Shown: one piece after another, positions 8,019-28,372 of the stretch
How the letters are laid out: every line of letters begins with the position of its first letter
How positions within the stretch are numbered: position 1 is the first letter of the stretch
Assembly: GCA_963377175.1 (NCBI GenBank)
Contig: CAUJNA010002768.1
Location: 622,001 to 686,000, forward strand
DNA length: 64,000 nucleotides
Direction of reading: 5' to 3'
Origin: Effrenium voratum
Lineage: Eukaryota; Sar; Dinophyceae; Suessiales; Symbiodiniaceae
Notes under the pieces: generated by a model
Told to the model about the DNA's origin: nothing
Database searches by the model: none
Seen by the model: only the letters and a program-made list of their open reading frames with translations
Made by a program: the position numbers and the translations under genes

Positions 8019-8570
8019 TCAGGCACTGGCGCTGGCTGCTTTCGCCTCAAAACAAACTGCGCGAGCGCAGTTTGTCATAAGGGCAAGCTGGTCCAACTTG
8101 CTGTTTAAATCACGCAGGGCCTCTTCAAGCCGCGCGTTCTTTTCAGCTGCTTCACGGAATTTCTGCTCAGCCTGGCGGAGACGGTCACACCAGTCCCGTG
8201 CACCCATGGTAGTGCTTTTGGTCCAGAAATCCAATTCTTTCTTCATGGAGTCATTGTCCAGCCGCAGCCGATCTACTTCAGCAAGCAACTCATCATGGTT
8301 TTGGAGATTCAGTAGTTCTTCCTTGGTGAGTCGCACACGGATGTTGCAGCGCCGGCTGTTCTCGTACCTGGCCCAGTGCAGTTTGCAAAGATGTTTTGGG
8401 CAGGCTCAAGAACACAGTTGAAGAGATAATAAAACACATACTACAATTATTGACTGAACTGTTATTCCAAGCTGCCGTCTCTTAGTTGCAGTTTTGACAT
8501 TCACGGGGTCGGCCTGCAGCTTCTTGGTGTTCTTCATCTCCCCCAGCTCGCTCTTTATTCTCACAACCAT
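8019..8570 (-). CDS. Coiled-coil protein, probably two exons
   Basis: The clear part is 8019-8404, which encodes a long heptad-patterned helix (EELLNLQNHDELLAEVDRLR, then the segment through DRLRQAEQKFREAAEKNARL). It is preceded by a Cys/His/Arg-rich segment, KHLCKLHWARYENSRRCNIR. Upstream, 8475-8570 encodes MVVRIKSELGEMKNTKKLQ from an ATG at 8570. A pyrimidine-rich stretch ending AG at about 8405 looks like a 3' splice site, so an intron of about 70 nt probably joins the two; the donor is not resolved. A 24-nt hairpin (8052-8075) lies near the C-terminus in frame and only 11 codons follow it. Function unknown; the coiled coil suggests dimerisation. Confidence 0.55.
8052..8075. repeat. Element hairpin 1
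   Basis: Perfect 10-bp stem ACAAACTGCG with loop CGAG, near the 3' end of the coiled-coil gene. Confidence 0.85.
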
Positions 8571-8814
8571 GGCACGCCCCCTTTGGCAACGGCGACGTGA
8601 AGTCAGGCGGCTGGAGCTTGACAAAGAAAGTAGCGAGAGTCCACCCCCTGCCCAGATCTTTTCAATGCTGGCCCATAAGAGTTTGTCAATGGTCGAAAGG
8701 TTCAACTACCGGCAAGTCAAGCTTTAGATCCCCCAAAAACAAAAAAGTCCAACTTGCACAAAGTATTCAAGCACCACAAGAAAAAAACTACCATTCGGGC
8801 ACTGGGCTCGGGCC

Positions 8815-9690
8815 CCAAAAAGTCATTCCATTCGGGCCCCGAAAAGATGGCTGGTGAACACAAATGTGCAGATTGAAACGGTGGCCTCCAAAGAGCCCCT
8901 GGAGGAACATCCACAGCCAAGAGCCCCGGGCCCCGAAAAGTTGTTCGATTCGGGCCCCGATTCGGGCCCCGAAAAGCTGTTCCATTCGGGTCCCGGATTC
9001 GGGCCCCGAAAAGTCGTATACCATTCGAGCCCCGAAAAGATGGCTGGTGGACACAAATGTGCAGATTGAAACGGTGGCCTCCAAAGAGCCCCTGGAAAAA
9101 CATCCAAAGCCAAGAGCCCCGGGCCGAAAAGTCGTTCGATTCGGGCCCCGATTCGGGCCCCGAAAAGCTGTTCCATTCGGGTCCCGGATTCGGGCCCCGA
9201 AAAGTCGTATACCATTCGGGCTCCGAAAAGATGGCTGGTGGACACAAATGTGCAAATTGAAACAGTGGCATCCAAAGAGTCCCTGGAGAAACATCCACAG
9301 CCAAGAGCCCCGGGCCCCGAAAAGTTTTTCGATTCGGGCCCCGATTCGGGCCCCGAAAAGCTGTTCCATTCGGGTCCCGGATTCGGGCCCCGAAAAGTCG
9401 TATACCATTCGAGCCCCGAAAAGATGGCTGGTGGACACAAATGTGCAGAACGGTGGCCTCCAAAGAGCCCCCAGAAACATCCACAGCCAAGAGCCCGGGC
9501 CACGAAAAGTTGTTCGATTCGGGCCCCGATTCGGGCCCCGAAAAGCTGTTCCTTTCGGAAAAGCTGTTCCTTTCGGGTCCCGGATTCGGGCCCCGAAAAG
9601 TTGTTTGATTCGGGCCCCGATTCGGGCCCCGAAAAGCTGTTCCATTCGGGTCCCGGATTCGGGCCCCGAAAAGCTGTTCCATTTGGGCCC
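8815..9690. repeat. 192-bp tandem repeat, about four units
   Basis: GATGGCTGGTG recurs at 8846, 9039, 9230 and 9423, a spacing of 191-193 bp. Each unit contains several copies of the near-palindrome TTCGGGCCCCGAA separated by AAAG-rich spacers. Long frames stay open on both strands (up to 321 codons), but the encoded peptides only repeat the satellite unit and no single frame is favoured, so I do not call a gene. It lies just inside the left end of the element. Confidence 0.9.
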
Positions 9691-9803
9691 CGGGTTCAGG
9701 CTCTAAATTGTTTTCAAGCTGGAAAAACTCTCCGTGGTGGCTCCGAAGACTTGTTCAAAATTTGGGCCGGGTTCAGGCCCCGAAGTTGCCACAGAGGGAG
9801 CAA

Positions 9804-9892
9804 GGGGCGGTGGCGCAATGGCAGCGTGCCCGGACCAACCTGTGGACACACGGGGGGGTAGGGAGGTCGCGGGTTCAAATCCCGCCTGCCCT
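9804..9892 (+). tRNA. tRNA-like gene or tRNA-derived sequence
   Basis: A 7-bp acceptor stem (GGGGCGG with CTGCCCT, two G-U pairs), a 4-bp D stem with the A-box TGGCGCAATGG, and a perfect T arm GCGGG-TTCAAAT-CCCGC containing the B-box GGTTCAAATCC are all visible. TTCTTTT follows directly, as a pol III terminator would. The anticodon arm does not fold normally: only CCCG/CGGG pairs, around an 18-nt loop, so either a short intron is present or this is a pseudo-tRNA or SINE head. I cannot assign an anticodon. Confidence 0.55.
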
Positions 9893-9895
9893 ATT

Positions 9896-9936
9896 CTTTT
9901 GCGCAGAGTGACCCCTCATCTTTTGCGCAGAGTGAC
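9896..9936 (+). repeat. Direct repeat after tRNA-like sequence
   Basis: CTTTTGCGCAGAGTGAC occurs twice in tandem with a short spacer, immediately 3' of the tRNA-like sequence. Confidence 0.8.
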
Positions 9937-10114
9937 TCGGGGGGCTTCAACATGGCCACGCAGTGGCTGTTGAAACTCACGCGGGCTCCTTTTTCAGACT
10001 CTCAGCTTTCCCCGCGACATGTCAATTGCATGTCTCCCCGACCATGTTGCTGCTAAGAAGCAAGCAGCAATTGCAGCTTGCAAAAACCCCCGTTTGGGAA
10101 AACAGCAAGGCATC

Positions 10115-10134
10115 CAACTGCGGGGGCGCAGTTG
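10115..10134. repeat. Element hairpin 2
   Basis: Stem CAACTGCG, 8 bp, loop GGGG. It lies 30 bp past the stop codon of the gene at 10165-10743. Confidence 0.85.
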
Positions 10135-10164
10135 TTTGAACACCTGATCCAATCTGTACTGGAG

Positions 10165-10743
10165 TCAAAGTCGATCAGGGCTGAACTGCTCCCAAGCCAG
10201 TGTTGTTTGGCTTCCGGAAGAGGCATCCTCGGGGGATGGCTCAGTTGTTGCATCGCAGCTGGGCGAGACATCAGGGTGCTCGGAATCTTTCTTCTGCTGC
10301 CACTTCCTTGCCAGGACCTGGGCCTCTGCCCAAGCCACTGCGACAAGCCCTGGCATAACTCGCTCACTCAGTGGCAAATCGTCGGCACTCCCCACGTAGA
10401 ACTTCATCCCGAAGCCAAACTTCTGTGATTGTCCAAGGCCGTTCACCACAAAGCTTGAGTTGTCCAGTTTAACCATAATCTTGCAGCATCCTGCAGGCTT
10501 GACCGTGTAGGAATGGTTGCCAACAGGCGGTGTCTCAGGCAGGGCATCCGCAGGTAAATGGAGGAGCGTGGGGTAATACTTCATCAAAATGTTTCCAAGC
10601 CGCTCCTTCTGCTGCAGAATGCTCCGCAAGTCTGGGTGGCTAAGCTCGTCCCAGTCCCCCGACTCTTCACGCTTGCGTTTCCGCTCTGCGCGAAGGTCAG
10701 CCCGACTGCCGAAAATCACCGTGCTCTCGTGTTCAGACGACAT
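10165..10743 (-). CDS. Unrecognised 192-residue protein
   Basis: Single uninterrupted frame with an ATG at 10743. Residues 14-25 hold a basic nuclear-signal-like cluster (RADLRAERKRKRE). The middle (about 60-140) is a plausible globular domain including VNGLGQSQKFGFGMKFYVGS and an Ala/Val-rich helix. The last 40 residues are Ser/Thr/Glu-rich and probably disordered. I recognise no family. It is one of the few element genes with no frame damage, so it is a good marker for finding relatives of the element. Hairpin 2 follows its stop. Confidence 0.6.
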   Translation of the reverse strand: MSSEHESTVIFGSRADLRAERKRKREESGDWDELSHPDLRSILQQKERLGNILMKYYPTLLHLPADALPETPPVGNHSYTVKPAGCCKIMVKLDNSSFVVNGLGQSQKFGFGMKFYVGSADDLPLSERVMPGLVAVAWAEAQVLARKWQQKKDSEHPDVSPSCDATTEPSPEDASSGSQTTLAWEQFSPDRL

Positions 10744-10978: not shown

Positions 10979-11922
10979 CTACTCAGAGGAGAACACAGTG
11001 ACTGGTTTTGTAGTTCCAGCAGCTGCGTTTCCGCAGCTGGCGGCAGCACGCTGCTTTGCGCGCTGATCTTGGTGCCATGGCGAATTGTTGATGATGGGTC
11101 CAACTTGGACACGGCCAATTTGATCGCACTCGGTGCCAGGGACCTGGTCGGCGGTGTCGACCAATAGAAACTCCGGATCCTCAACCTGCATGTCAGCGTC
11201 CTCTCCTTCTGCATCAGATTCATGCGTTACTGCAGTGATCTGCTCGATGTCATCAGGATGCCAGATGGCGTTGCCAGGAAAGAGAGAAAGTGGCATGAAC
11301 CTGCGAATCATGTCAACGTCTCGTCTGTGAAGGGCCTTCAGCATCACCCGTGGTTTTGGCACGGGGTCACTGATTGGCAGGCAAAGTATCGAGGAATAGT
11401 CCTGGGACCAGTCAGGCACGCGATCGAGCTCGTCCTGCCAGCCCCAAATCAAGAAGCGCTTCTCCCAGGAAGCATGGCCAAGCGGCCCATAATCTCCACC
11501 ATAAGGGGCACGTTGAATGTCATACACCACACACCGCAACTGATAATGCTTCCTCTTGTACTCGTTGATGGCACATATCAGGTTCTTTGTGGGCCCTGGC
11601 ACCAGCTGAACCCAAGGCCGACGCTCGATCCACTGCTGCACTGAGGAAGTGCGAGATTGCACCAGTCTGCAGTTTCCTCTGTGTAATGTCTTTCCAGATA
11701 ATCGTCGCTGTTCACATGAATGAACACTCGCAGATCCCTGAACTCCTCCATGCAGATGGGGCTCCCTTTGCGAAACACGATGGCTTGCTCCAACTTTTCC
11801 AGTATCTCCGAATGAAGCTGATAGAGCGGGAAGAAGCTGGACTTCCACGTCACCAAGCAAGCGTGGTCGCCTGGCTGAAACCGTGCCTCCTGACGGCCCA
11901 TGCTGTCCAACCATGACGACAT
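10979..11922 (-). CDS. Unrecognised protein, one frame change
   Basis: Starts at the ATG at 11922 (MSSWLDSMGRQEARFQPGDH). That frame reads sensibly to about 11650 (…YLERHYTEETADWCNLA), where the neighbouring frame takes over with VQQWIERRPWVQLVPGPTKN and runs to the stop at 10979. A one-base indel or a very small intron would reconcile the two. The C-terminal half has a Trp-rich segment (WEKRFLIWGWQDELDRVPDW) and then an acidic stretch. Hairpin 3 is in frame near the C-terminus (AAASCGNAAA). No family recognised. Confidence 0.5.
11020..11039. repeat. Element hairpin 3
   Basis: Stem CAGCTGCG, 8 bp. The loop reads GAAA on the sense strand. In frame, 13 codons before the stop at 10979. Confidence 0.85.
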
Positions 11923-12151
11923 AATTACTGTGGTAGCACAGTAATGTCTGTCGGAAGTGGGACTGACGCGCAGTAGCCTAGATGTGAAGCGAAATCATCT
12001 GCAGGGCAATAACATCAATCAACAACATGGCAACTTTCAAGGACAGTCGCAACTTGCAAGGTCCAACACGCAATGCTTGCTCTTTTGTTTCTTTGCCCAT
12101 CACGCGGTGCCATGGTCTGCTGCGCGCCCGCAGCAGACATTGCCACAAGGT

Positions 12152-12721: not shown

Positions 12722-12756
12722 GAATGGCAATGCTACTTACTGGCTTGAGGGGCTCA

Positions 12757-12985: not shown

Positions 12986-13009
12986 ACAAACTGTGGCACC
13001 ACAGTTTGT
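12986..13009. repeat. Element hairpin 4, abuts stop codon
   Basis: Stem ACAAACTGTG, 10 bp perfect, loop GCAC. It begins at the base next to the TAA stop of the gene ending at 13010. Confidence 0.9.
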
Positions 13010-14067: not shown

Positions 14068-14165
14068 TGTGGATTAAATTCCACATCTTAGTCACGCCGA
14101 TGCCCTTGAACAGGTTGTTCCACTGAGAATGCAGGCCTGACCGGCCTCCGTCAAAGAACAAGAAC

Positions 14166-16335
14166 CTAAGATGAGCAACGCATGGACGGCGCACGCATCC
14201 TGTGTTTATGTAATAAGCTAGGCAACACATCCGAAGCGTCTGGGGGAGGCGGCCCGTCCGAGTCGTCAAAGGTCAAAGTGGATTGCATGTTTCGTGCAAA
14301 AAGCACGCCCTTGACCACTTTCTCGAAGTGTTCTTTCTGAAACGGAGGGGGTGGACCTCCGAGCGTCGGTTTTATGCTCTCCTGCCTGCTCAACGTCCCA
14401 AATGAAAAGTTGGGAACCCTCCTGGCTTCGCGTCTTTAGGAATTCCACCTTCGACAAAGCAAGGATGAGTTTGTCAATCTCTTGGTCAGCCACCGCGACC
14501 TGCAAAAGGGAATTGACAAGGTCCTTGGCGGTTGTCTCAGTTTCTAGCAGAAACTCTTTGTCTTCAGTCTTCAGAGCTTCAACTGCATGGACAGCCTCAG
14601 TTGCCTTGGCTTCATTGGGCTCTGAAAGGCGGATGGCGGCTTTCACAAGGGCGGCGTCATCCAACGCACCTTTGTCCGCTGACTCGCCTGCGTTGCCGCA
14701 GCCGTTTTGTCGTCTTTCTTGGTTAGCTTGTCCCAGATGGGCTTGAGCACCTCGCGCTCGAGAAGGGCATTCACGTCAAAGTTGGTGTGCAACACGCTCT
14801 TCACCTTCTCGTCGTACTTCTTGGTGTAAATGAGATCTGCCAGAAATTCCGCAGCCTCTTGACTGGCTGGCTGCAGCGCCCCAGCCACGATTTGTTGGCC
14901 ACGACTTTCACGGATTTGCCTCGGCGCCATGTCCAGATCATTACAATGTCATGGGCGACACTTGAATCACCAATTGCAGTCAAAATGCTAGGGTCAAGTT
15001 CATTGTCAGGGATATTGTCGAGCGTCTCCCGCGAGAAGAGAAGGCCACCAGCCATTGCCTTGCGCCACGTTTTCTGAGTGGAGAGTTTCTCCCGAATGCG
15101 TTTTGCGTCCTCACATGGCAGGCTCTTGTGAGCCAACAGCATGTCCAGGATCTCATCTTTCAGGACATACTTCCATGCCCACATATGCAACAGCCTCAGA
15201 AGCAGTGCGCCCCCATCAATCAAGGCAAAACCTAAGAAAAAAGCAGCAGTGCTAGGAGTCAGGCCCTTTGGAATTATCCCACGGGGGTTCTTGCCGGCCA
15301 ACGCCTGGGGGTTGAGCTCGCCTTGCTTGAAGGTTTTGTTCAACGCCGCATCCATGAGGGCATCGAACACCCACTTCACGCAAGGCGGTTGCTTCTTGCA
15401 AGCAGTGGCAAGGTCTCGCAAAACATATATCTTGCTGGGACTTCGCTTTCCGAAGAGCTCCTCAGAAAGCAGGACTTCCTCTCGGAAAGAAGTGTCGCTC
15501 AGCAAGGAATTCCACAGAGCCATCAAGACTTCGAGGAAGGACTGCGTCACTGCCTCCCCCGATGTCACCGTCAAGTTGGCAGACAAGATCTCGAAAAGCT
15601 TCGTAGTCGTCAGCTTGGTCTTGGAAGCTGATTCGTGATTCAACTTGAAGGACACTATTTGAAAGATGCGTTGCACAGGGCTGTAGTACATGGTCTCGTA
15701 GCTGGTCCCAACATCCTCCCATTGCTTGGCCGCTTCCCAGAACAAATTCAGCCCGGGCTTGAAGCGGCAATCGATCGTGGAAGACAGCCACGCCCTTCTC
15801 CATTCCTGCGCTGGCAACTCAATGCTTGGCTAGTAATGTATTTAGGGGCCAAGACAGCGACGGCGCCGGCCTCCTGGAACTTGTCGTGCTGCAAGTCCCT
15901 CGCTGTGGCCAAGATGAAGGCGTGATGGTCCTCCTCCGGACTGATCCTCTTCATTTGCCCATTTTTCTGGTCCATAAACAAGTCATCCACTGCCACCACC
16001 AAATTTATAGGCTGGGGCGTCTTGTACGTGGCGCGCATGATCCACTTTACGCTGCTCTTGTACACTGGCACACTTGCAGTCGAAGACCATGACCAGCTAA
16101 CCCACGCTACATTGCCGCCTGCAATGTACTGGTCAGTAGTGGAATCTCCCTCCTTCATGGCCTCCATCATGGACTGCAACTTGCGATTGTCGAAGGGGTC
16201 TTGACGACCGCCCTCCTCGATCGTTAAGGGCTTCATTGACTCAAGGTCCCTGAAAAGATCCGTCCTGAGCAGCAGCGCAGTACTGACTGATGGCATCTCT
16301 ATTACTGAGGCCCGCGCTCCACAATGAGTTCCCAA
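14166..16335 (-). CDS. Large unrecognised gene broken by frame changes
   Basis: The frames 16335-15760, 15817-14920, 14930-14690, 14680-14390 and 14393-14200 overlap end to end on one strand and together read as about 700 residues of plausible protein. Landmarks are PINLVVAVDDLFMDQKNGQM, then a mostly helical body (SSAKNP-type loop, FFLGFALIDGGALLLRLLHM), then AVEALKTEDKEFLLETETTA. A 17-residue hydrophobic stretch around AAFFLGFALIDGGALLL could be a buried helix. No family recognised. Frame changes lie near 15790, 14930, 14690 and 14380, and the one at 14690 coincides with hairpin 5. Decay, missed short introns or assembly indels are the options. Confidence 0.45.
14688..14701. repeat. Element hairpin 5
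   Basis: Core CTGCG stem, 5 bp, with sense loop GCAA. It encodes TAAATQ in one frame. The downstream coding frame is the next one over. Confidence 0.75.
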
Positions 16336-16436: not shown

Positions 16437-16452
16437 GCTGCGGTTACGCAGC
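16437..16452. repeat. Element hairpin 6
   Basis: Stem GCTGCG, 6 bp, loop GTTA, about 100 bp upstream of the gene starting near 16335. Confidence 0.75.
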
Positions 16453-16682: not shown

Positions 16683-16702
16683 TAACTGTGGCTCCACAGT
16701 TA
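16683..16702. repeat. Element hairpin 7, abuts stop codon
   Basis: Stem TAACTGTG, 8 bp, loop GCTC, directly next to the TAG stop of the methyltransferase gene at 16703. Confidence 0.9.
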
Positions 16703-17975
16703 CTAGGCCCAGCGGATCAACCTAGCTGCCGTGAGCACCGCCCTCATTGCCTCCCTCAGGACAGGAACCGACATGGCGTCGCCCACCATTTTGCCTCTCT
16801 TGGCGCGGGACACACTTTTGGGCCAGCGGAAGTTGTGGAATCCCTGCAAAGCCGCCAGCTCCTTGAGGCTGAGAAAGCGACTTTCCTTAGCAGACAGGCT
16901 GTAAGCGGGCTGCGGGCTGCGCAACTCGCCACACTTGATTATTTGCACTCGCTAAATCTGGTTTGGACAAGAATCGTTGTCGAGCCAGAAGTTGTCGCCG
17001 GAGGCTCGTGCACATGTGATTGTGGGAACATAGCCCGAGGTGACCTGCCGGAAGTTTTTCCCGGCTCCTGCGTCGATGATGTCCCTGTCCAGATTCCAAA
17101 CACCCTTCGCCTTGAGCTTCTTCCTTCCTGCCAAAATGTTGTTCCGCTTTGTTTTGCAAAGCTTCTTGATGTCCACCTTGGGAAGCCCCTTCTCCAAGAA
17201 GTCGTCCAGGCAAGCGAACTTGCTTTCAGGCAGCGAGTGGACCATATTTGGTTTTCTGGTTTTCACACCCTTGCGCGTGGACCTCCTGGCGCCCATGATG
17301 TAGATCCTCTTCCGGTTCTGCGGAAGCCCGAAACTGCGGCTGTTCACCATTCGCCAGCTGACAGCATAGGCCCGCTTCTGCGACCCAGGAAGCCGACATT
17401 CCTTGAGCTGCTGCAGAAGTTTGTTGAAGTGCTTCCTGTGCTTCTTGTTCCGGATGCCCGTCACATTCTCCAGCACAAATCCACGCGGTTGCATGCGGCA
17501 GATGTAGTCCACCACAGCCTTTGATAAATCACGTTGGTCGCATTTCCCCTGCCCGACGCCCGCCGTACCTCGGAAGGAGCTGACTAAGCAAAGACCTATG
17601 TGCAAAAAAACAGAAAGTAACCCAAACTCGGTTGAAAACAGCTACTTGTTCTGGCAGTCTGCTGTATGGTTGGCACGGAAACCCAGCTGTGTACAAGTCA
17701 CACTTCTCGCAAACATTTCCAAGAGCATATCCAAGACTCCTCGGTCCTTTTTTGTGGGAAAGAATCACCTTTCGGCAATCTGGGTCCACATCGGTGGCAA
17801 ACTGAACCATGAACTCAATCCCCAGTTGCTTCGCTGCCACAACATCAGTTCCCATGCCGCTGCAGTCGCTCCCAAGCATGATTGGCCACTTGCGCTGGCA
17901 ATGTGGCTCCACCTTCTCCACGCGAGGAGGCTTCTTGATGCCAGTTTTCTTCACCTTCAAGGATGTCTTCCCCAT
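16703..17975 (-). CDS. Cytosine-C5 DNA methyltransferase, with in-frame TAG
   Basis: Transfers a methyl group from S-adenosylmethionine to cytosine C5. Exon 1 (17975 to about 17663) has the SAM motif I GSDCSGMGTD (residues 35-44) and the catalytic motif IV PCQ (100-102). A 79-nt intron with GC-AG ends (17584-17662) fits the break that follows. Exon 2 carries GQGKCDQRDLS, motif VI as ENVTG, motif VIII QNRKRIY and a target-recognition-sized region. An in-frame TAG at 16952-16954 then interrupts the frame; beyond it, ELAALQGFHNF and GDAMSVPVL match motifs IX-X. All key residues are present, so only the TAG argues for inactivation. The basic N-terminus (KVKKTGIKKPPR) suggests nuclear import. DNA methyltransferases carried by dinoflagellate retrotransposons are known; this one sits in a non-retroviral element. 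Confidence 0.85.
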
Positions 17976-18185
17976 GCTTCACGGACTTTCTGCGGCAACG
18001 CAGCAAGTCAGCTGAAGAAGCAACTGGAGGAAAGCTGGCTGCGGGGCGAAGCGGGAAGCGGCTTGACGGGCAGACAGAACACATGAGCACACCAGACAAC
18101 AGACAACAAGACGTAGTAGTCTCGGCTTGGGGCTTAATTGCACATACCCCCCAAAACAACTAGCAGGTCAGCCCGATTTTGAGCC

Positions 18186-18410
18186 GCAGCGCCAGGGGGT
18201 TCCGTACCCCCTGGCACTGCAAGTTCTGATGCATCAGAACTCGCAGTGCCAGGGGTTACCCCCCATTTTCGAGTCCCGAGTGCCAGAGGGTTCGGAACCC
18301 CCCGGCACTTGGGACTCGAAAATGGGGGGTAACCCCCGGCACTGCAAGTTCTGATGCATCAGAACTCGCAGCGCCAGGGGGTTCGGAACCCCCTGGCACT
18401 CGGGCTGTCG
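18186..18410. repeat. Nested palindrome cluster
   Basis: A repeated palindrome centred on TTCTGATGCATCAGAA occurs twice. It flanks a larger inverted repeat whose arms (CGAGTCCC and its complement GGGACTCG within a ~35-bp arm through CCATTTTCGAGTCCC) surround a GC-rich centre. Outside are CCAGGGGGTTCCG palindromes. The whole ~215 bp is roughly symmetric about 18295 and could extrude as a large cruciform. It lies between the methyltransferase and the transposase candidate. Confidence 0.85.
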
Positions 18411-18580: not shown

Positions 18581-18866
18581 TGTTCATTTGGCAGACACAG
18601 GGAGCAACACCAAAAACCTGGCTTGCGTGGCAGAAAGCGCTCAAACAAAACTCCCACAAAATGGAGGATTTTTCGGCTGACCGGACCCGCGCATCAGCCG
18701 GGACAAGGTTCCCCCCACCCCCCCACGGCTTTGTACACTGTTTAACTCCCAGCGCTTCAAGAAGCACTTTCCGTCCATCGCATAGACGTGTTTCTCTCTG
18801 TTATGACGCGAGGCAGTGGCAGCCCTCTTCCCCAGTCTGCAGATTCTGTGCAGCGACCAATGCTCG

Positions 18867-19481
18867 TCATTGGCGGCTGTGACCCAGGCAGAATCGCTCT
18901 ATTGCCCCAAGAGCTCCCCACTGTACAAATGTATGGGCGTTGAACATCTTTGTGGATGTCAGCACGGACTTTTCCTGCACCAGTCCTACACTCACATAGT
19001 TCTTCTTGGTCTTGGCAGCTTTGGCTGCGTTCACCCAGGTGGCAGCCTTGTCCTCAGTTCTGTTACCAGGGGCGCGCCGCTCCAAACAAGGCACACGGGA
19101 CACGGACAGGACGACAAGTGTGCCACAGCCAGCCAAGGCCCGCACGTACACTTTCCAGTTGAGCTCTTGCATGCGTGTTTGTGCCAAGACAGCGAATCGC
19201 GGATGACGTTTGCGAAATGATGGCGTAATGAGCTCATGTCTTCGGGTGCCCTTGGCTGGCCCTTTGTATTTAACCCAAGGCCCAAACCCGGTCTTGATCG
19301 CAGCTTGGCTTACGATAAGACCACCAGAGAGTCGCATTAGCCATGAAGCTCGAGAGCCAGGTTTTGCGACATTGTTCACCACAACGCCTTCAGCCAAGAG
19401 ATAATCAGCGACCACCAGGGCACCCAAAGAGTGGAGTTTCTGGTGCAAGTCAGTAGAGTCTGCCTCCTCTTTCGCGAGCAA
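18867..19481 (-). CDS. Unrecognised frame downstream of the transposase candidate
   Basis: It is in the same frame as the gene at 19524-20744 and separated by one TGA and 14 codons of T-rich sequence (GTTTGAATTTGC…TTTTCTTAG). That interval could be a 44-nt intron, making this the C-terminal extension of the same protein. It encodes about 200 residues, mostly basic, including LHQKLHSLGALVVADYLLAE. No motif recognised. Confidence 0.4.
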   Translation of the reverse strand: MLAKEEADSTDLHQKLHSLGALVVADYLLAEGVVVNNVAKPGSRASWLMRLSGGLIVSQAAIKTGFGPWVKYKGPAKGTRRHELITPSFRKRHPRFAVLAQTRMQELNWKVYVRALAGCGTLVVLSVSRVPCLERRAPGNRTEDKAATWVNAAKAAKTKKNYVSVGLVQEKSVLTSTKMFNAHTFVQWGALGAIERFCLGHSRQ

Positions 19482-19523: not shown

Positions 19524-20744
19524 TCAAACGCCAAGGCGCATATTGGCCAGAGCTGGAAGTTCAGGCTGACTCCGCCTGCGTTTCAGCGAGCTTTCGAGCT
19601 GAGCTTGGTGGTCAGCTTTCCTCCTACGCTCCAAGCATTGGCTGTGCTCTGCTGGACGAAGCTGCTCTTGCCGCAGCAGCAGGTCGTCTTGCTGAGCTTG
19701 AAAGCACCGTCTTTTCTTCAGCTCCGACAACTTCTTGGTCGCTTCCTCGTGCTTGGTGGAAATTGCATTTCCAGCTGCCTTGCGGGAACTTTTGCTCAGC
19801 CGCAGCATGTCCCGAGGGGCATCGTTCAGCTTTAAGCACCGCTTCACACTCTTCCGGCGTCGAGCTATCCACGCGGCTTCCGAAACAGGATTTCTTGTTC
19901 GTGCCTTGGCCGGCAAGGTGTGCAAAGCGAACTCCGGCAAGTTAAAAAAAGCTATGTGCCGCCAAGCGTCCTGCCGGCTTGCTTCTAGTCGAAGACCGGA
20001 AACAAACTTAGGTTTGCGAGCGGACCCAGATGATCTTTCAGAGCCGAAGCCTTCCTGCCAAATCTTTTGGGCAAGCATCGCAACTGCACCACGAAGACTG
20101 TTCTTGTCCCACTGGCGAAGCCGCCTCTCGAACGCCTTGAAGTAAGGGCCTAAGAAAGCCCTGTCGCGTGCAGTGTGGTACTTGATATCTGCAAAGTCAC
20201 GCTCGCTCTGCGCAGTTCCAGCCGCCGATGCCAGCAAGACACGGGCAAGCGTTTTTGACATGTCCGGGCAGCGGCCGCTGACACTTGACTCTGCCAAGGT
20301 CCAGGCTTGCAAATCACCCAACTCTTCCGACTTGGACAGTTGTTTTCCTGGGCAGAGCATTGGAAAGCGACAAGCAAAGCAGGACAAGCAATATGCACCG
20401 TTAAACAACCTCAGAACCGGTCGGTGGCGTTGGGCAGTAGGCTTTAAGTCTTGGAACTGTTCATAGAGCTGCTTAGAGTTCGCGTCGAACATCTGGGAGA
20501 GCCGCAGAAGACAGCGCTGTGTTTCCGCAGCGCTCTTTTGGGGGCCGCTGAGCGAAAAGGCTGACAAGTTGTGGAGCAGTTCAAATTCAGGAAACTCTGT
20601 CTTGATGGTCTGCGAGACAAGGGCGAGCCATGCAGCCATCCTTGCAAAGCACCTGTTGAAAACGATCGGCGAAACGCTGCCTCCCACACTCCTGTGCCCA
20701 GCGCCCAGTTGAATCAAACGAGGTCTTTCCAGCCACTTCAGCAC
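19524..20744 (-). CDS. hAT-like transposase candidate, C-terminal part
   Basis: About 400 residues. The segment ASAAGTAQSERDFADIKYHT (around residues 172-191) resembles the hAT C-terminal dimerisation block, where an AGTA-S-ER-F core is typical. The preceding FPEFELLHNLSAFSL and LLRLSQMFDANSKQLYEQFQ fit the helical region before it. The C-terminal 130 residues are very basic and coiled. Hairpin 8 is inside the frame as KSAAETQRC. The link to the N-terminal part is by position, strand and family likeness. hAT assignment is tentative: the catalytic D-D-E residues cannot be placed with confidence. Confidence 0.45.
   Translation of the reverse strand: MLKWLERPRLIQLGAGHRSVGGSVSPIVFNRCFARMAAWLALVSQTIKTEFPEFELLHNLSAFSLSGPQKSAAETQRCLLRLSQMFDANSKQLYEQFQDLKPTAQRHRPVLRLFNGAYCLSCFACRFPMLCPGKQLSKSEELGDLQAWTLAESSVSGRCPDMSKTLARVLLASAAGTAQSERDFADIKYHTARDRAFLGPYFKAFERRLRQWDKNSLRGAVAMLAQKIWQEGFGSERSSGSARKPKFVSGLRLEASRQDAWRHIAFFNLPEFALHTLPAKARTRNPVSEAAWIARRRKSVKRCLKLNDAPRDMLRLSKSSRKAAGNAISTKHEEATKKLSELKKRRCFQAQQDDLLLRQEQLRPAEHSQCLERRRKADHQAQLESSLKRRRSQPELPALANMRLGV
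20513..20534. repeat. Element hairpin 8
   Basis: Stem AGCGCTGYG, 9 bp with one T-G pair; sense loop GAAA. Within a reading frame. Confidence 0.8.
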
Positions 20745-20799: not shown

Positions 20800-22426
20800 T
20801 CAGTGCTGTCTAGAAGCGTGCTGTGTGTAACCACTGGAGGTGGCTGTTTTCTGCACGAAGAGCACATGCAGCCTTTGAGCAAAGGTTGTCAAGCAGGTTT
20901 GCGCTGCACTCATGTCCATCTGGCTCTTGTCAAATCTGCGTAAAATTCTGATCTCCTCATCAGCAGCGTCAGCCATCATAGCCATTTGCAGGTACACCTC
21001 TGTGGATATAGACTCCAGGAACTTCTTGGCAACCCTTCGGGGTTTCGCGTTGGTCTTTACTCGCAATATCCTTAGATTTGCAACACAGTTTTTCTTTGAA
21101 ATGGCGACATACTCAAGCAAGCCTGATGCCTACTAAGTCTCTCGTGAGCTGTGGCCAAGAACGCATCCGCAAGAAGGATAAATCGCCCCATCGGCTTCTG
21201 CAGAGAAGAATGACGATGCTTGGCCGACTGCAAGTCTCTCATGCCACTGTGACGCAGAAATTCGGCGTCCAGGTGCCGAACCTTAGCGCGACGAGACACT
21301 ATGGCCACACTTGCGGCATGTGTGTTAAAACATGTCCACTTTTGAGCCTAGCAACATGCTTCGCAAACATCACCTTCAAATCTGGCGAATGCCAAATCAG
21401 CGCAGTCATAGACTCCTTTCCAGATATGAATTGCTGCATGTATTCCTGAAGCGTCTCGTCAAGATGCCATTTCTTTGCAAACCTTAGCCAGCAAGGCAGC
21501 TGTCTGTTAGTTGTCCGTTCCGCGCAGGGTTGTTTACTGGGAATGCAACACGTGAGGACTGCGCTGAGTTGCCGCTGGACAGCATGCGCGCTGTCGCGCA
21601 GTCGAATCTTCATAGCTGGAAAAGTCTCGGCAGGAAAGTGGTCCCGAAGTGAGAGTAAACGGCCGGCTCTCAGTTCATCAGCGGCCGCATCCGAAGCAAA
21701 CATTTCCTCAGCAGCGTCAGCGTCAGGGAGAAGCATTTTGTTTTGAAACATGGAGCAAGCAAAGCTTTGCCGCCTAGGTTCCACCCTTCTGCGAAAATGC
21801 TGCCAAGCCTTTTTGTAAAATGTCGGCGCCTTCCCGCACCACCCAGACGGAGGTTTTCTTCTAGCCTGAAACATAGTTTTTGCAACTCGCAGCGTTGTCC
21901 TGGCAATCCTTCGGGCGCCGCAAATTTGGCCGTGGAAGAGCCCCAAGAGGCCTTGATGCAGTTCAAGTTGACCGCGCTGCGGTTTCGCAGCGCGGTTTGA
22001 CACACAGGCAAATCTGACAGAAAGCATCGGCCCTTGCGCATCTTGCGAAATCAGAGCTACCTGGCACTTCCCAAGTTTCTTCCGCTCCATGTCCAACATA
22101 GCCTCATTCAAGCACCATGAAATGTTCTTTTCCTTGTAGCGGCCAAGAGGAGATTTTCGAAGCGATTCTCCTTTCAAGCGGCGCTCCACAACACCCAGAA
22201 AGGTGTCCATTGACGGGGTGCCTGGCAGATTTGGGCTGCAGCCAAGCGCTGTCGCTCGTCGGAACCGATGCAGTACTCCACGCTCATGTTGTTTCAATTG
22301 CGTTGTTCGCAATCCTTCCACTGAGCGGCTGAAGCACTTGCAGTACCGGCACTGCACATTCGACTCAGTCAGTTTTGCCCACTTGAACAGTCTTCCCCAC
22401 TTAATCACGCATTTGGAAGAAGGCAT
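20800..22426 (-). CDS. BED-finger/hAT-like transposase candidate, N-terminal part
   Basis: The ATG at 22426 opens a 375-codon frame. Residues 26-57 hold a zinc-finger pattern (CRYCKCFSRSVEGLRTTQLK followed by HERGVLH, a C-x2-C…H-x5-H spacing) as in BED fingers of hAT-type transposases. The frame ends at 21299 and continues in other frames as VRHLDAEFLRHSGMRDLQSA (21308-21130) and VANLRILRVKTNAKPRRVAK then MADAADEEIRILRRFDKSQM (21120-20830). At least two frame changes are therefore needed. Hairpin 9 is inside as NRAAKPQRG and hairpin 10 lies 13 bp upstream of the ATG. It could mobilise the 21.5-kb element, but this copy looks broken. Confidence 0.5.
21971..21996. repeat. Element hairpin 9
   Basis: Longest perfect stem of the set together with hairpin 18, 11 bp (ACCGCGCTGCG), loop GTTT, inside a reading frame. 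Confidence 0.9.
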
Positions 22427-22438
22427 GGCGCCATCCGA

Positions 22439-22454
22439 ACTGCGTTGCCGCAGT
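22439..22454. repeat. Element hairpin 10
   Basis: Stem ACTGCG, 6 bp, sense loop GCAA, 13 bp before the ATG of the transposase candidate. Confidence 0.8.
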
Positions 22455-22664
22455 CGGTGCAGCAGCTGCCCTACAACTTGAGCATGTTTCGACAGGCGTG
22501 ATCAACGATTAACGATGCCGCAACATGAACTGTGCCACGACAGAAACACTCAGGCAAAACGGACGAGCCCTTTTTACCTCTGCGGGACTGTGTGCTTGAA
22601 GTGCGACCGCTTCCGAAGCCGTCAGCTGTACAAAGGCTTCGCAAGCAATGATTCCAAAAACCTG

Positions 22665-22680
22665 ACTGCGGCGACGCAGT
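22665..22680. repeat. Element hairpin 11, abuts stop codon
   Basis: Stem ACTGCG, 6 bp, loop GCGA on the plus strand, directly next to the TGA stop at 22681. Confidence 0.85.
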
Positions 22681-25235
22681 TCAGTTTTTGACCTTTTCGA
22701 GGCCCAGGAACCAGTCCTTTACGTCAGCGAGCGCCTGCTTTGTGCAGGGATCATCAGTCCACCACTCAATGCCGTCGTTGAAGGTCACTTTCAGCCATTG
22801 TCCCCGGTAATTGTACCAGCGTTGGCCCGTGGGGAATTTTGGCGCCCGTGGCAGCCGGCGGAACTGCGCGGCAATGTATCCAGCAGCGACCCATTGTGTA
22901 TATGTATAGGTGCCGCTAGAGTGCATCCTGTGCACCGGCGCCAGTCTCTTTGTCGCTTTCATGCTTCCCCGAGTTCTGAAGGGCAGCCCAATGATTCGGG
23001 ATCTCTTGAATCGCGTTCTCATGCGCGACCGCGTCTTCTGCTGTCGAGTCCTGGATAGCCCCGCCGCAATTCCACCATGCGGGTCAGGCATGTTGTCATA
23101 GATGCCTGTCGCAGTGACATAGGCCGTCTCCGCTGCTGTAATCTGTGTGTGGAACCAATCGCCTGCCTGAGTGCCGAGCTTTGGGAACCCGGCGTCCTGC
23201 CACTGCCTCTCCAATTGCAGCAATTGTGCTCCTTGCCATCGACCTGACTCAAGCGGCATCCACCGCCACTCATCTTGGTCCGGGTGCTCATCTTGGTCCT
23301 CGTCCTTCTGTGACATTTTGTCATCCGGCTCCTCCTCAGCCTCATCATCCTCATCTGAGATTCCGCTCAGCTCAGAGTCAGAATCACGAACATTGACACG
23401 CTCAAGGGTCATTGTCAGGTGCTCCGCACGCTGGAGTTGTTGCTGCAGCCCGTCGTCATCATCATCCTCCTGCATGTCGTCAGCCGGCGACGTTGGCGAA
23501 CAGTTGAACCAGGCCGGAACTTCTTCCTGCTCCTGTCCATGTCAGTGTCAAGCTGCGTCGCCGCAGCTGATTTTGGCATGGGCAAAAACGGAGTTGGGCT
23601 TGCCGGCTCCTGCTTGCACTCCTCCACCGGCAGCTGAGTGACAGTGGGCTCCTCCGGCTGCAGAGTTGGAGTTTCCTGCTCCATGCTCGGCACCACAGTT
23701 GGCGTCGGCGCAAGGCTGCTTGACGACCCGCCTCGCGGGCTGCGTGACCGGCAAGCGGTGAACGCAGCAGCTCTTGCCTTCACGTTGGTGGGCTGAGGAG
23801 CCCAGGGGAAGCAGCAGCTCAAGGGTGTGAGATTCTTCACCTTGTCATAGTCCATGTGAAGGAACCACTCCTTGTGTGGGACGTAGTCTTCTTCCCAGTG
23901 AGGGGTGTGGGCACAGTCGTGCCACCTGCTTGCTGCAATCTTTTCGTATACGGGCACCTCCACGTGGTCCCCCTGCAACTCTTTCGGCAGCAGGCGGCAT
24001 TGCGGCTGGAAATTCCGCGAGCACGCCTCGCCCTGCTGGACCCGCATGTTATACCTCACGATCACCTTCACTATCACGAGGTCCTCCGCATTCCACACCA
24101 GCTCTGCGCCACGATGCATGTTAAAAATCGTCCTGGGGGTGTGGCCCAGAAGCTGGAAGCCCAAAGCGTAGTAGACATTGTTGCCGAAGACATTTGTCTT
24201 CCACGCGTAGTGGTCGAAGACGTGCTCCCAGTCTTCTGCTGTGTACCTTGGCGCACAAGGTCGGCAAGGCACGAACAGGCAAGACTACAACAACCAAGGA
24301 CTAAACATTCAGGAATCATTACCAAACACAAATTTCTTGGCAAGGCGCACTCCGACTCCACGGCCTCCTCGGCCGTGATACTCGCGTGCCCCCAGCCCGG
24401 CGTCGTTATCTGACGCAGTCAGCTTTCCCTGTCTCAGGATTGCCGGGGCACATTCCCAGTACGTGCCGTGAACCACCGAGTGCAAGTGGATGCCATCTGC
24501 GTTTCCGCAGATGTCTTGAATACGACGCTGCCACTGCGCAGAGTGCAGTCTGTCCGACTGCAAGTAATCGAACTCGATGTGGCCAGAGCTTTTCGAGGTC
24601 TCCTGGGGGAAATGGCGGCATTGGCCCAGAGAGTCGCAGACTCCGTGGACGTGCGCCCAGCGCCGCACCATCATCTCCACCAATGCTGGGTCCTTTGCAA
24701 GGGGGTGGTTGCTCTGGCTCCTCCCGTGTTTTTCCCACTTTGAACGCTTGGTCAATCTCCCGATGTTGTTCCTCAGGACATCATACGGGGCTTGCACCAA
24801 TGGAGTGGCCAACTCCAATGACTTTGTGCCAGCCACATGCGACAGCTTCAGGAGATTCGCCAGCATCTCGCTCGCGATGAGGACCGACTTCAGCGGCAGT
24901 CGTTCAATGCTTTCCAGTGCCCTGTGTGATGGCCGCTGTGTTGCCACAGCGGCTTGGTTCACTCTGTCCAGGAAGTCTGCAAGCGGAGTCCTGCAAAGGT
25001 CATAGAGGTCGCGATGACTCAGCATCGTGTTGACCTTCACCCACTTGTGCCCGGAATTCTGGTCGAGCGGCTTTGTTGAGACCCCATCCACATTGGCCAT
25101 CCCGTGTGGCAGGAGCTCGGGTTTGCCAATGCGTTGAGGGCCATGGACCTCTAGTGTATCGTGGCAGAAAGACGGCAAGACGAAGCCGAAATTGATGTGG
25201 TTTACGTTTCTCCGCTTGCCTTCCTGCAGGGGCAT
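22681..25235 (-). CDS. ADP-ribosyltransferase-like protein, multi-exon
   Basis: The first part runs from the ATG at 25235 to about 24306. It ends with IHLHSVVHGTYWECAPAILR and a Gly-rich turn, which fits the HGT…IL..G start of ART/PARP/Tpt1-type folds. GTAATG at about 24306 is a plausible donor, and the frame resumes near 24240 with EHVFDHYAWKTNVFGNNVYY, where ART enzymes have their Y-containing strand and helix. A second break near 23490 leads from a low-complexity linker (PTVTQLPVEECKQEP) to an acidic stretch and a Trp/Tyr-rich C-terminal domain (QRWYNYRGQWLKVTFNDGIE) ending at 22681. ART enzymes move ADP-ribose from NAD to protein or nucleic acid. The catalytic Glu is not placed. Hairpins 12-14 lie in frame and hairpin 11 follows the stop. 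Confidence 0.55.
23551..23568. repeat. Element hairpin 12
   Basis: Stem AGCTGCG, 7 bp, sense loop GCGA; encodes SAAATQL in the ART-like gene. Confidence 0.85.
24494..24513. repeat. Element hairpin 13
   Basis: Stem CATCTGCG, 8 bp, sense loop GAAA; encodes DICGNADG just before the HGT motif of the ART-like gene. Confidence 0.85.
24932..24953. repeat. Element hairpin 14
   Basis: Stem GCCGCTGTG, 9 bp perfect, sense loop GCAA; encodes QAAVATQR. Confidence 0.85.
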
Positions 25236-25258
25236 TGCTTGAACAGTGTTTGCAATAG

Positions 25259-25720
25259 TTAGAACAAACGTACAGGGACATGCAGCTTTTCACACGCCCC
25301 AACCCCATGCACTTTCCCAAACCTGTCCTGAAATTTCTGGTTTATCAGCGTCGTGTCTTTTGCCAGCGTGAAAAAGTGGCCCGCGACGCTGGAGTCCAGC
25401 TGCAACCCAGCCTCTTCTACCAGTTCCCTTAAGGCGGCATTCTTGGCCGCATCTTCCTGCCAGTTTCCACCATGCCTGTAGACAAGATCTGCTGGAACTA
25501 TGCTTCCAGCAGGTGTAGCAAGAAACCCGCTGCACTTTCGGTGCGCCAAGACATGCCAGTCGAAATTGACATTCATGAACAAGTATAGCGCCACACTGCC
25601 ATACTCGTCGGAATGTCGCGGCATGTCCTGCTGTGTTGCCAAAGCAGTCTTCAATCTGCCTTGCCCTTGCTTGAAGCCAAGGCTGGCGCGCAAGCAGTGT
25701 GAGATGCAGTTGTGTTTCAT
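25259..25720 (-). CDS. Nudix hydrolase
   Basis: The ATG at 25720 gives 153 residues. The Nudix box is GGNWQEDAAKNAALRELVEE plus AGL (residues 84-106). The REL-x-EE-x-G core that binds the metal is intact; the first conserved Glu of the box is Asp. Nudix enzymes hydrolyse nucleoside diphosphates linked to another group, such as ADP-ribose, capped RNA or oxidised dNTPs; the substrate cannot be told here. It starts just upstream of the ART-like gene on the same strand, so ADP-ribose is a reasonable guess. Residues 25-31 (TALATQQ) come from a decayed copy of the element hairpin. The frame is intact and ends at 25259. Confidence 0.8.
   Translation of the reverse strand: MKHNCISHCLRASLGFKQGQGRLKTALATQQDMPRHSDEYGSVALYLFMNVNFDWHVLAHRKCSGFLATPAGSIVPADLVYRHGGNWQEDAAKNAALRELVEEAGLQLDSSVAGHFFTLAKDTTLINQKFQDRFGKVHGVGACEKLHVPVRLF
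25631..25647. repeat. Element hairpin 15, decayed
   Basis: CTGTG-TTGC-CAAAGCAG: the left arm and loop match the family, the right arm has lost pairing. Recognised mainly by the TALATQQ peptide. Confidence 0.5.
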
Positions 25721-26143: not shown

Positions 26144-26159
26144 ACTGCGTGGCCGCAGT
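26144..26159. repeat. Element hairpin 16
   Basis: Stem ACTGCG, 6 bp, loop TGGC, between gene blocks. The flanks (AAG/TTTG) suggest a longer stem that has lost one pair. Confidence 0.75.
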
Positions 26160-26205
26160 TTGCGTCTAGCGATGCTCGAAGACTGTCTCCTTGGGCTGTC
26201 TGTGT

Positions 26206-26791
26206 CTAGCAAGGCTTGATTGTCTCCTTGGACTCATTCTTCTGATTCAGCAGCCCAATAATCATCATCTCTATCTTGTTGACACGGCCTTGCACCCCTG
26301 TCAGCTCGTCCAAGATATCCTTAAGCACTTCCTCGGGCGGGAGCGGCGGCGGACTCAGCCACGGCGGCGGCGGGGAGGTGCTGGTCCACGCCGAGGATGC
26401 CTGCGATGATGGCGGCAAGCGATCATACACGGCGCCCACCCAGTTAGTACACATCGGCGGTTCGCAATTTTCGGACCGAACTTTGAAGGCCTCATCCCTG
26501 GTGTAGCGCCAGCTGTGCTGCAGGCCAGCCTCAGCCTTTCCCTCCAGCAGGCACACGCATCACCTCAAAGTTCCAACCGCAAACCATCACACCGCTGTCT
26601 TTGAAGGCCTTCTTGTTGAACAACGGGGTCTTGCATTTCCATCCGCAGACATCGCACACGGCCTGCCAGTCAGAATTCCACGGCATTGTCTGACTGACAG
26701 CTGCGTTTCCGCAGATGTTCCACAGATGTTCCTTAACAGCTGCGGCGGGCAATTCAACCATCACGACATGAACACAGCATCCCTGACACAT
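26206..26791 (-). CDS. Cys-rich then Pro-rich unknown protein, one frame change
   Basis: The first frame (ATG at 26791) has Cys pairs (CQGCC near the start, CDVCGWKC around residue 46). A shift by one near 26560 continues as CLLEGKAEAGLQHSWRYTRD. It then has a Pro-rich linker (PPPPWLSPPPLPPEE) and a short coiled coil (ILDELTGVQGRVNKIEMMII) to the stop at 26206. The Cys pairs could bind zinc. Hairpin 17 is in frame as NICGNAAV. No family recognised. Confidence 0.45.
26701..26714. repeat. Element hairpin 17
   Basis: Core CTGCG stem, 5 bp, sense loop GAAA; encodes ICGNA. Confidence 0.75.
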
Positions 26792-26969
26792 GTTTCAAAC
26801 TGTTCACAGGCGCGCCCGAGCAAACACAGGCACGAATCGAAGACTGCAGCTCTACCACCATTAGCCTTGCGTAAGAGGGTCTTTTTCTTGTTCCGACCTT
26901 GCGCCCGAAACGTGTAAAGTCAAGACTAAGCTACTGTTGGAATTTGCAGAGGTGTTGGCCATTAACAAG

Positions 26970-26995
26970 AACCAACTGCGGGCACGCAGTTGGTT
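26970..26995. repeat. Element hairpin 18
   Basis: Stem AACCAACTGCG, 11 bp perfect, loop GGCA, in the gap after the small frame ending at 27107. Confidence 0.9.
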
Positions 26996-27106
26996 TTCGC
27001 GGCAGCAGCGCTGCGTGGAACTCCGGCAGTATAAACATGGGACCAAGGGCATTCTGACTATCTTCGTTTACCAGCACGGGTGCGAGGCGAGTGAGCCAGG
27101 CATGCG

Positions 27107-27418
27107 TCACCCGGCGCGCCTGGGGCGGCGGGTGCGAAGGGCCTCCTGTTCAGATGCACTGCTGGAGGAGTCACAAAGCAAATCGGGCAATGCGGCCATG
27201 CCACGTATATACCACCGCAAGTCTGCATGCACCCACCACTCGGCAGCTTGTAGCGATGCTCGCTCGCCGAGGGTAAGGAAAGGCCATAAAGCTTCGGCCG
27301 CCGCGGGGGTGAGGAAATAAGTGCTCCCCCAAAGCGGAAGCGGCATCGACGCTGGGGATGCCGGCGGCGTGTCGTCAGGCACGCTGTTGTGCATACACCA
27401 GTCTGACTGTTCCATCAT
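27107..27418 (-). CDS. Small unknown protein
   Basis: 103 codons from the ATG at 27418. Composition is ordinary, with a Pro-rich N-terminus, a central hydrophobic helix (YFLTPAAAEALWPFLTLGER) and a Ser-rich acidic C-terminus. There is no family match. Support is limited to strand agreement with its neighbours and hairpin 18 lying 110 bp downstream. Confidence 0.35.
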   Translation of the reverse strand: MMEQSDWCMHNSVPDDTPPASPASMPLPLWGSTYFLTPAAAEALWPFLTLGERASLQAAEWWVHADLRWYIRGMAALPDLLCDSSSSASEQEALRTRRPRRAG

Positions 27419-27594
27419 GGCTCCCCTAAAAAAAGGCTAGTTTGGACCAGAGCGCTCAAAGTAACTTGCACAAAAAGCATCTCAAATTGACAAATATTGC
27501 CCCAGGTGCTATTTTTCTTGCCTGCAAACAAGCATGCGGCAGCAAACACATCGTTTCTCAGGCTGCAGCAGCCCCTCAAGCTCAGCCCAAACAC

Positions 27595-28158
27595 TCACTG
27601 TGTTGCCGCAGTGTGTTCGTATGTGAACTCTCGAAGCACCGGCTGCAAGTCCTGTATCAGGACATGGACTGGCCAGAGTATGGCCAGAAACACACACTCT
27701 GCGTCGTGGCCAGCGGCAAGACCGCCCCACACATCCAGGGCCTCGCTCACCTGCAACATTTGGTCATGGAGAGTGCGCAGCTCGTCAAGCTTAACCTTGT
27801 TCAGCTTCCCCTTCATCGGCCGCAGCATCTCGTACTCATCAAACATCCACAAGACGTCCTTGTAGCGCACATCAGTCACCGGTGTCTTGTGACAAAAAAA
27901 GTGTTCAAGCACAGTGCATGTGGCGCAGCACTTGCTGATGATCTTGGAGTTCATCCGGTTGTCTTTGTACAGAGGGCCCAGAGTCTCGCAGACCTTGATG
28001 AGCATCGAGAAAGGGATCTTGTCTGGTTGCCCGCAAGTGATTCGTTGGATGTCTTCCGCCAACTTGTATAGGCAATCCCCCCGCACAATGCCAGCTGAGC
28101 CCTCCTCCAAGTACCTGGATGCCATGGCTTCGCCAGCTTTGGTTGCAAAGCTGGACAT
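27595..28158 (-). CDS. Unknown 187-residue helical protein
   Basis: The ATG at 28158 (MSSFATKAGEAMASRYLEEG) gives an uninterrupted frame. The body is helical and contains CCATCTVLEHFFCH, a Cys/His cluster that might bind metal, and a C-terminal hydrophobic stretch (ECVFLAILWPVHVLIQDLQP), possibly one membrane or buried helix. The last residues EHTAATQ and the TGA stop are supplied by hairpin 19, so the repeat itself now ends the protein. No family recognised. Confidence 0.55.
   Translation of the reverse strand: MSSFATKAGEAMASRYLEEGSAGIVRGDCLYKLAEDIQRITCGQPDKIPFSMLIKVCETLGPLYKDNRMNSKIISKCCATCTVLEHFFCHKTPVTDVRYKDVLWMFDEYEMLRPMKGKLNKVKLDELRTLHDQMLQVSEALDVWGGLAAGHDAECVFLAILWPVHVLIQDLQPVLREFTYEHTAATQ
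27596..27613. repeat. Element hairpin 19, overlaps stop codon
   Basis: Stem CACTGYG, 7 bp with one T-G pair, sense loop GCAA. The end of the right arm supplies the first two bases of the TGA stop at 27595. Confidence 0.8.
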
Positions 28159-28348
28159 TTCAACGAGTTGAAGCCGAACCGAAGCTGAGCCAGTTGAACC
28201 GAATGGGCGGGCGGCGGGCGAAAACTCACTGAGCCGCACGCACGCTGGCAGCAAAACAGACACGCTTTTCCTTGTGCTTTGTAAAACTCAGGAGTTGCCA
28301 AACTTCTCAGGCAAAGCAAAAACCTAAGCTGAGCCGGGCTCTCAGGGG

Positions 28349-28372
28349 AAAGGCTGTGTTTCCGCAGCCTTT
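28349..28372. repeat. Element hairpin 20
   Basis: Stem AAAGGCTGYG, 10 bp with one T-G pair, sense loop GAAA. It lies 13 bp past the stop at 28386. Confidence 0.85.

Follow-up and report, generated by a model that had tools for sequence, protein, structure and literature searches.

The window analyzed here is a 64,000-nucleotide (nt) stretch of the Effrenium voratum genome (C2767:622001-686000, from an assembly of 1.156 Gb, 1,155,904,702 bases). It contains a 21.5-kb element bounded by terminal inverted repeats (TIRs), from 7548 to 29069, and this element carries a family of short hairpins with the core CTGYG-N4-CRCAG. The hairpins form a set of structured sites that is specific to the element, ancestral, and older than its amplification; they are not the work of a palindrome that is hopping at present. 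The explanation we tentatively prefer, with less than even confidence, is that they are cis-acting stem-loop signals specific to the element, probably acting in RNA, which were selected before amplification.

The search for exact hairpins returned 22 in the window, all at 8057-28354 within the element, compared with a mean of 0.17 and a maximum of 2 in 200 dinucleotide shuffles, a control that had been named beforehand. The remaining 42.5 kb of the window had none (0.24 expected by shuffle), as stated in the initial annotation. The 19 hairpins listed there were all present. Its estimate of a family of about 20 was right as to the family, but missed three exact copies (11924, 12115, and 17990) and a hairpin with a variant core, CTTTG-GTTG-CAAAG, which the hairpin census showed at 28133-28154. 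With the variant and a decayed copy at 25631, which has one core mismatch and is marginal, the family comes to 24.

A covariance model trained on 23 hairpins (the 22 exact ones and 28133) recovered its own members and then 25631, at 14.3 bits (E 0.21), barely over noise. Beyond this the model gave only noise inside and outside the element, the next match having 11.7 bits or less; another possible decayed copy, at 13788, had no hit and is unsupported. At Rfam gathering scores, the hairpins matched no known family, and the whole window gave only a tRNA at 9804-9893.

Loop lengths of 0-29 were scanned in the element with the core fixed; length 4 gave 22 hairpins, and each other length gave 0-2. 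The description of a constant core and a 4-nt loop with differing flanks therefore holds for the loop, which is enriched at length 4 alone. The flanks do differ, yet they pair far above chance. We counted 64 contiguous Watson-Crick pairs in the flanks, compared with 14.5 when the right flanks were swapped among copies (maximum 41 in 20,000 swaps). In an alignment of the 23 hairpins, pairing cells amounted to 88.3% versus 72.0% after shuffling, with slid controls lower, and both-side changes were present in 44 cells versus 15.7 in shuffles, none of 500 being as high. Core position 4 and its partner covary in the 22 exact copies (15 C-G, 4 T-A, 3 T-G, and 0 C-A). A GNNA loop occurs on one strand in 15 of these 22, on the gene strand in 11 and on the other strand in 4 (p 0.12), and the 7 non-GNNA hairpins carry longer flank stems (p 0.008); the p-values assume independent hairpins, and shared ancestry may break that independence.

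Hairpins in other copies of the element

The genome-wide scan that had been proposed as a check found 9,792 sites with the core pattern, compared with 3,525 for a reversed-pattern control. Among the matches listed, 50 places lie on contigs C1-C6. Sixteen are in the first 4.64 Mb of C1, near chance density, five on C3 share one identical 14-mer and represent another repeat, and a dense run of sites on C6 starts at 247504, within a further copy of the element. The element is high-copy in this genome: the open reading frame (ORF) 21299-22501 had at least 106 matches with 96-100% identity and ORF 24309-25289 at least 128 with 68-100% identity, both being lower bounds in which some matches are two pieces of one copy.

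A comparison of homologous copies had also been proposed, and it showed that the same sites are kept. We compared a 3-4 kb stretch across 60 loci (52 of distinct content); the loci were chosen by protein similarity, so the low ORF diversity among them is biased. The core was intact in 54/57 aligned loci at hairpin 20513, 56/58 at 22439, 57/58 at 22665, and 54/55 at 23551. All family-type hairpins in the 60 loci fell at known sites, with no new site and no clean empty site; irregular deletions had removed part or all of a hairpin in three aligned loci, two at 20517 and one at 22666 (short site names are core starts, Table 1). Because the same sites are found across copies, the hairpin set predates the amplification.

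The search for empty sites in the whole genome gave 126 exact occupied sites and 0 empty ones for hairpin 24932, and 111 and 0 for hairpin 26970. Flanks 0-10 nt apart were searched for, and copies with changed flanks match neither the occupied nor the empty pattern. The loop of 24936 was altered in 11 of 100 of the matches listed (AGGC in 7, TGGC in 2, CGGC in 1, and GTGC in 1). Direct repeats around the hairpins were not in excess (sum 64 vs. 61 shuffled, p 0.43); 2 of the 22 (12120 and 16438) have a direct match of 5 nt, set 2 nt beyond the arms, a count without its own control. The lack of empty sites and of a direct-repeat excess indicates that there is no present hopping and that the set is ancestral.

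The further copy on C6 (246.8-270.1 kb; 246812-270076) carries the right part of the element with 94-99% identity. Eleven exact window hairpins fall in the aligned stretches, and 10 of them have exact cores in the C6 copy, the one change being at 22440. This copy also has a fully paired CTTTG/CAAAG at the position of the mismatched window hairpin 25631, the loop CGGC at hairpin 24932, and an extra hairpin at 255513, where the window is 3 nt short; it is without window 27.8-28.57 kb, including two hairpins. The same TIR tip is found at both ends, with ATAA flanking each side. The other part of this copy, about 13.8 kb, matched the window element by blastn at the TIR tip only and had no family hairpin above noise (best model score 12.3 bits; 40 kb examined, including 2,600 N). 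Since this non-matching half lacks hairpins yet has the same TIR tips, the hairpins travel with the gene set and not with the TIRs.

The C6 copy is chimeric, and its non-matching part has a PIF1-type helicase-like fragment (read by eye) and tandem repeats. A peptide encoded at 18860-18950 (+) in the window, also read by eye, is found beside that fragment too, which suggests that this stretch is a recombination joint in the window element.

The initial annotation proposed either a palindrome that spreads independently or a selected RNA structure. The first is weakened by the results above; the second fits as to structure, with RNA as its putative level. A palindromic mobile sequence of about 14-18 nt might instead have spread in one ancestral burst, inserting into palindrome centers or copying its flanks in inverted form, and then halted, so that the hairpins now have no job. 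We consider this somewhat unlikely. A burst would give a common core with flanks that are unrelated yet self-complementary, and would place hairpins at coding, 5′, and 3′ positions alike. A distant protein, P0027 (30% identity), agrees with it in having a 6-residue gap (net 5) at hairpin 21971 (21977), in a variable stretch; P0027 is probably from another genome, because no near-identical match is listed in this one, where matches are mostly at 32-40%. Against such a burst stand 0 empty sites at two hairpins, no new site in 60 loci, direct repeats at the shuffled level, and the location of 22/22 hairpins within the element, the other 42.5 kb, which has none, including a Copia-like element.

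Gene edges and possible function of the hairpins

Nearly all likely genes of the element lie head-to-tail on the minus strand (ORFs as read here). By eye, five hairpins lie 5-16 nt upstream of an ATG (11924, 16437, 17990, 22439, and 26701) and seven at or soon past a stop (10115, 12115, 12986, 16683, 22665, 27596, and 28349), with 26144 farther away. For minus-strand ORFs of at least 120 aa, 5 of the 24 hairpins followed closely on a stop and 3 stood shortly ahead of an ATG, against means of 1.17 and 0.52, respectively. The joint p by rotation was 0.0018, and 0.0026 and 0.0054 for ORFs of 100 and 80 aa; ORFs were called by length, and the distance bounds were picked after the positions were seen. 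The same rotation test showed no enrichment at the ends of plus-strand ORFs. A bias against insertion into coding sequence could be part of the source of this enrichment.

Under the explanation that we prefer, the signal would be the fixed 5-bp core and the 4-nt loop, mostly GNNA, plus an arm that needs only to pair. A factor that reads structure would select for an invariant core and loop length together with arms that merely pair. There would be about one or two signals per gene (genes as read here), in place before amplification, and they would most likely be recognized in RNAs of the element itself, at the 5′ and 3′ edges of genes and sometimes inside the coding part. The gene-edge position on the gene strand favors RNA. 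A selected structure also fits unrelated flanks that pair, loops of the GNNA type, and the longer stems of non-GNNA hairpins, as well as the retention of the same sites in other copies, the full pairing at 25631 in the C6 copy, and cores at 22666 and 23553 that are less variable than their surroundings. We infer action as RNA, a protein reader, and a downstream effect: the reader may be an RNA-binding or RNA-cleaving factor, and the outcome could be 3′-end processing, trans-splicing choice, stability, or translation. Within the element lineage, the pairing would have been maintained by selection, and later copies would drift. It is possible, if doubtful, that a DNA transposon here tags each gene with a private RNA stem-loop (CTGYG-GNNA-CRCAG), its transcripts forming a self-recognized regulon.

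Several results weigh against signals of this kind. Fold energies favored neither strand (11 vs. 10, one tie), and wobble-type (G-T) pairs lean to the plus strand (22 vs. 11 cells; 19 vs. 11 in flanks and 3 vs. 0 in cores), so neither favors RNA. At least five hairpins are inside reading frames (14688, 20513, 21971, 24494, and 24932, plus others). Constraint within young copies is inconsistent: core variation was 0.011-0.039 per position versus 0.001-0.044 alongside. The core was less variable than the sequence on either side at 22666 and 23553, intermediate between the sides at 20517 and 22440, and far more variable than its surroundings at 21977, the hairpin whose core was intact in 46/60 aligned loci and broken in 14/60. 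The hairpin-free part of the C6 copy counts on the same side. Lastly, no RNase III, poly(A) polymerase, or other obvious hairpin reader was found when 29 element entries (28 distinct ORFs, part of all ORFs) were compared with Pfam.

Energies without strand preference and wobble pairs that do not favor the gene strand would also be expected if the hairpins act as DNA, as cruciforms or single-strand hairpins in replication, transposition, or chromatin marking, read by a protein that the element encodes. GNNA loops also stabilize DNA hairpins, and the element encodes a DNA methyltransferase and an ORF with a weak BED finger. We nevertheless regard this alternative as unlikely: the hairpins are associated only with the ends of minus-strand ORFs, and transposase sites are usually near element ends, not every kilobase. 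Chance, low complexity, or an assembly artefact is extremely improbable in view of the shuffle controls and the presence of the same hairpins on many contigs. A dimeric protein-binding site by itself was rejected as a complete explanation, given that the flanks pair and that the loops show a bias to GNNA.

Other features of the element and its surroundings

The TIRs, two annotated genes, and all 24 hairpins are given in Table 1. No matching target-site duplication was apparent by eye at either end of the window copy. The 8-bp duplication of hAT elements was likewise not seen by eye (ATAA flanks the C6 copy on each side; the window copy has no match), and ORF 19524-20744 had no match to the hAT dimerization domain at E up to 0.1. 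The Pfam scan showed a weak NUDIX domain among the element ORFs. The predicted structure of ORF 24309-25289 was uninformative (mean predicted local distance difference test score, pLDDT, 31.5), and searches of solved structures gave a best match of E 0.35 and otherwise none.

Table 1. Terminal repeats, annotated genes, and hairpins of the element in the window
Feature	Position	Strand	Remarks
Left TIR	7548..7699	+	152 nt, tip CTGGCCGGTCATTAAGGACATGC; 88% complementary to 28918-29069
Right TIR	28918..29069	-	Partner of 7548..7699
C5 cytosine-specific DNA methyltransferase gene	16703..17975	-	Several frames; PF00145 E 9.4e-21 and 1.1e-4
375-aa ORF, weak BED zinc finger	21299..22426	-	18.2 bits, under cut-off 20.6
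Hairpin, 10-bp stem	8052..8075	.	Within C-terminal end of ORF 8019-8405(-)
Hairpin, 8 bp	10115..10134	.	30 nt past stop of ORF 10165-10743(-)
Hairpin, 8 bp, GAAA loop on gene strand	11020..11039	.	Close to 3′ end of ORF 10979(-)
Hairpin, 9 bp	11924..11945	.	Core 5 nt upstream of minus-strand ATG
Hairpin, 10 bp	12115..12138	.	13 nt past stop of ORF 12152(-)
Hairpin, 10 bp	12986..13009	.	Immediately past stop of ORF 13010(-)
Hairpin, 5 bp, GCAA loop on gene strand	14688..14701	.	Within multi-frame gene
Hairpin, 6 bp	16437..16452	.	Core 16 nt upstream of ATG
Hairpin, 8 bp	16683..16702	.	Immediately past stop of C5-methyltransferase gene
Hairpin, 5 bp	17990..18003	.	14 nt upstream of methyltransferase ATG; flank pairing resumes past one mismatch
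Hairpin, GAAA loop on gene strand	20513..20534	.	Core start 20517; within ORF 19524-20744(-)
Hairpin, 11 bp	21971..21996	.	Core start 21977; within ORF 21299-22426(-)
Hairpin, 6 bp	22439..22454	.	Core start 22440; core 13 nt upstream of ATG of ORF 21299-22426(-)
Hairpin	22665..22680	.	Core start 22666; immediately past stop of ORF 22681-23475(-); in certain other copies, stem longer and bulged (by eye)
Hairpin, 7 bp	23551..23568	.	Core start 23553; 3′ part of ORF 23415-24284(-)
Hairpin, 8 bp, GAAA loop on gene strand	24494..24513	.	Within ORF 24309-25235(-)
Hairpin, 9 bp, GCAA loop on gene strand	24932..24953	.	Core start 24936; within ORF 24309-25235(-)
Hairpin, one core mismatch	25628..25647	.	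Paired CTTTG/CAAAG form in C6 copy
Hairpin	26144..26159	.	46 nt past stop of ORF 26206(-)
Hairpin, 5 bp, GAAA loop on gene strand	26701..26714	.	14 nt upstream of in-frame ATG, ORF 26531-26794(-)
Hairpin, 11 bp (13 with G-T)	26970..26995	.	Core start 26976; outside ORFs taken as genes
Hairpin	27596..27613	.	Ends on stop codon of ORF 27595(-)
Hairpin, variant core CTTTG-N4-CAAAG	28133..28154	.	Just past ATG of ORF 27595-28158(-)
Hairpin	28349..28372	.	13 nt past stop of ORF 28386(-)

Within the element, we also noted an inverted repeat at 18182-18406 (112 nt, 90% complementary, spacer of 1 nt), a repeat array based on CGGGCCCCGAAAAG at 8808-9710 (periods of 193 and 37 nt), and a tRNA-like sequence at 9804-9893 (Rfam 46 bits) that was not called by ARAGORN. 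The element adjoins Copia-like sequence, and Copia-like polyproteins and an RCC1-like gene were found in the window. At an ORF end in the Copia-like region (29055-31610, minus strand), there is a weak match to Tpt1/KptA RNA 2′-phosphotransferase, below cut-off. Satellite-like tandem arrays are present at 44708-46412 and 49701-54408 (periods of 263, 62, and 293-380 nt).

Possible viral relatives were searched for in two ways. A 14-mer scan of viral contigs gave chance-like single matches among the matches listed, and protein-based scans, which are sensitive to close relatives only, found none. One viral contig has three CTGCGGAAACGCAG at 30-nt spacing (L068:10132-10205), probably an unrelated tandem repeat.

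Significance and comparison with known systems

If the tags are functional, the transposon has a gene punctuation or self-recognition code of its own, and this would be a direct handle on the expression of an element with many genes in a lineage whose regulation is believed to act mostly after transcription. Since single hairpins have more than 100 occupied copies in this one genome, the structure is open to comparative sequence analysis, and a gene for the reader protein may lie nearby. If the hairpins are relics of a palindrome burst, they record a mobile sequence of very small size that targeted palindromes in an unusual way.

The comparisons that follow draw on parts of the cited sources. 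Titles and abstract openings in the open-licence literature on dinoflagellate and algal hairpins, palindromes, and stem-loops showed no such system, which does not imply its absence from print. Retrotransposons of Symbiodinium carry captured C5 DNA methyltransferases (PMC5890265). The element resembles them as a dinoflagellate mobile element with a C5 methyltransferase and differs in being TIR-bounded; the terms "hairpin" and "inverted repeat" had 0 hits in the main text of that paper. The introners of Amoebophrya are introns with inverted repeats of 8-20 nt around the body and direct repeats of 3-5 nt (PMC7789003). They share with our hairpins a dinoflagellate lineage, inverted repeats capable of forming hairpins, and many copies; the hairpins described here, in contrast, have a 4-nt loop and no direct-repeat excess. 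The palindromic elements of Rickettsia are palindromes found within and between genes, whereas our hairpins are much shorter, have a common core of only 10 nt, and are confined in the window to one transposon.

Among working systems, the nearest parallel is the hairpin rule known from Mimiviridae and Pithovirus, in which palindromes without a conserved sequence end the transcripts and are cut by a viral RNase III (PMC4402537). Both systems consist of palindromes of one replicon with an unconserved arm sequence. The hairpins of the element, unlike the viral ones, have a conserved 5-bp core and a 4-nt loop and also occur before starts and inside frames, and no RNase III or poly(A) polymerase was present among the ORFs scanned. 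The putative self-recognized regulon would thus be punctuation comparable to that of giant viruses, but with a core of its own and with tags at starts, at stops, and inside coding sequences.

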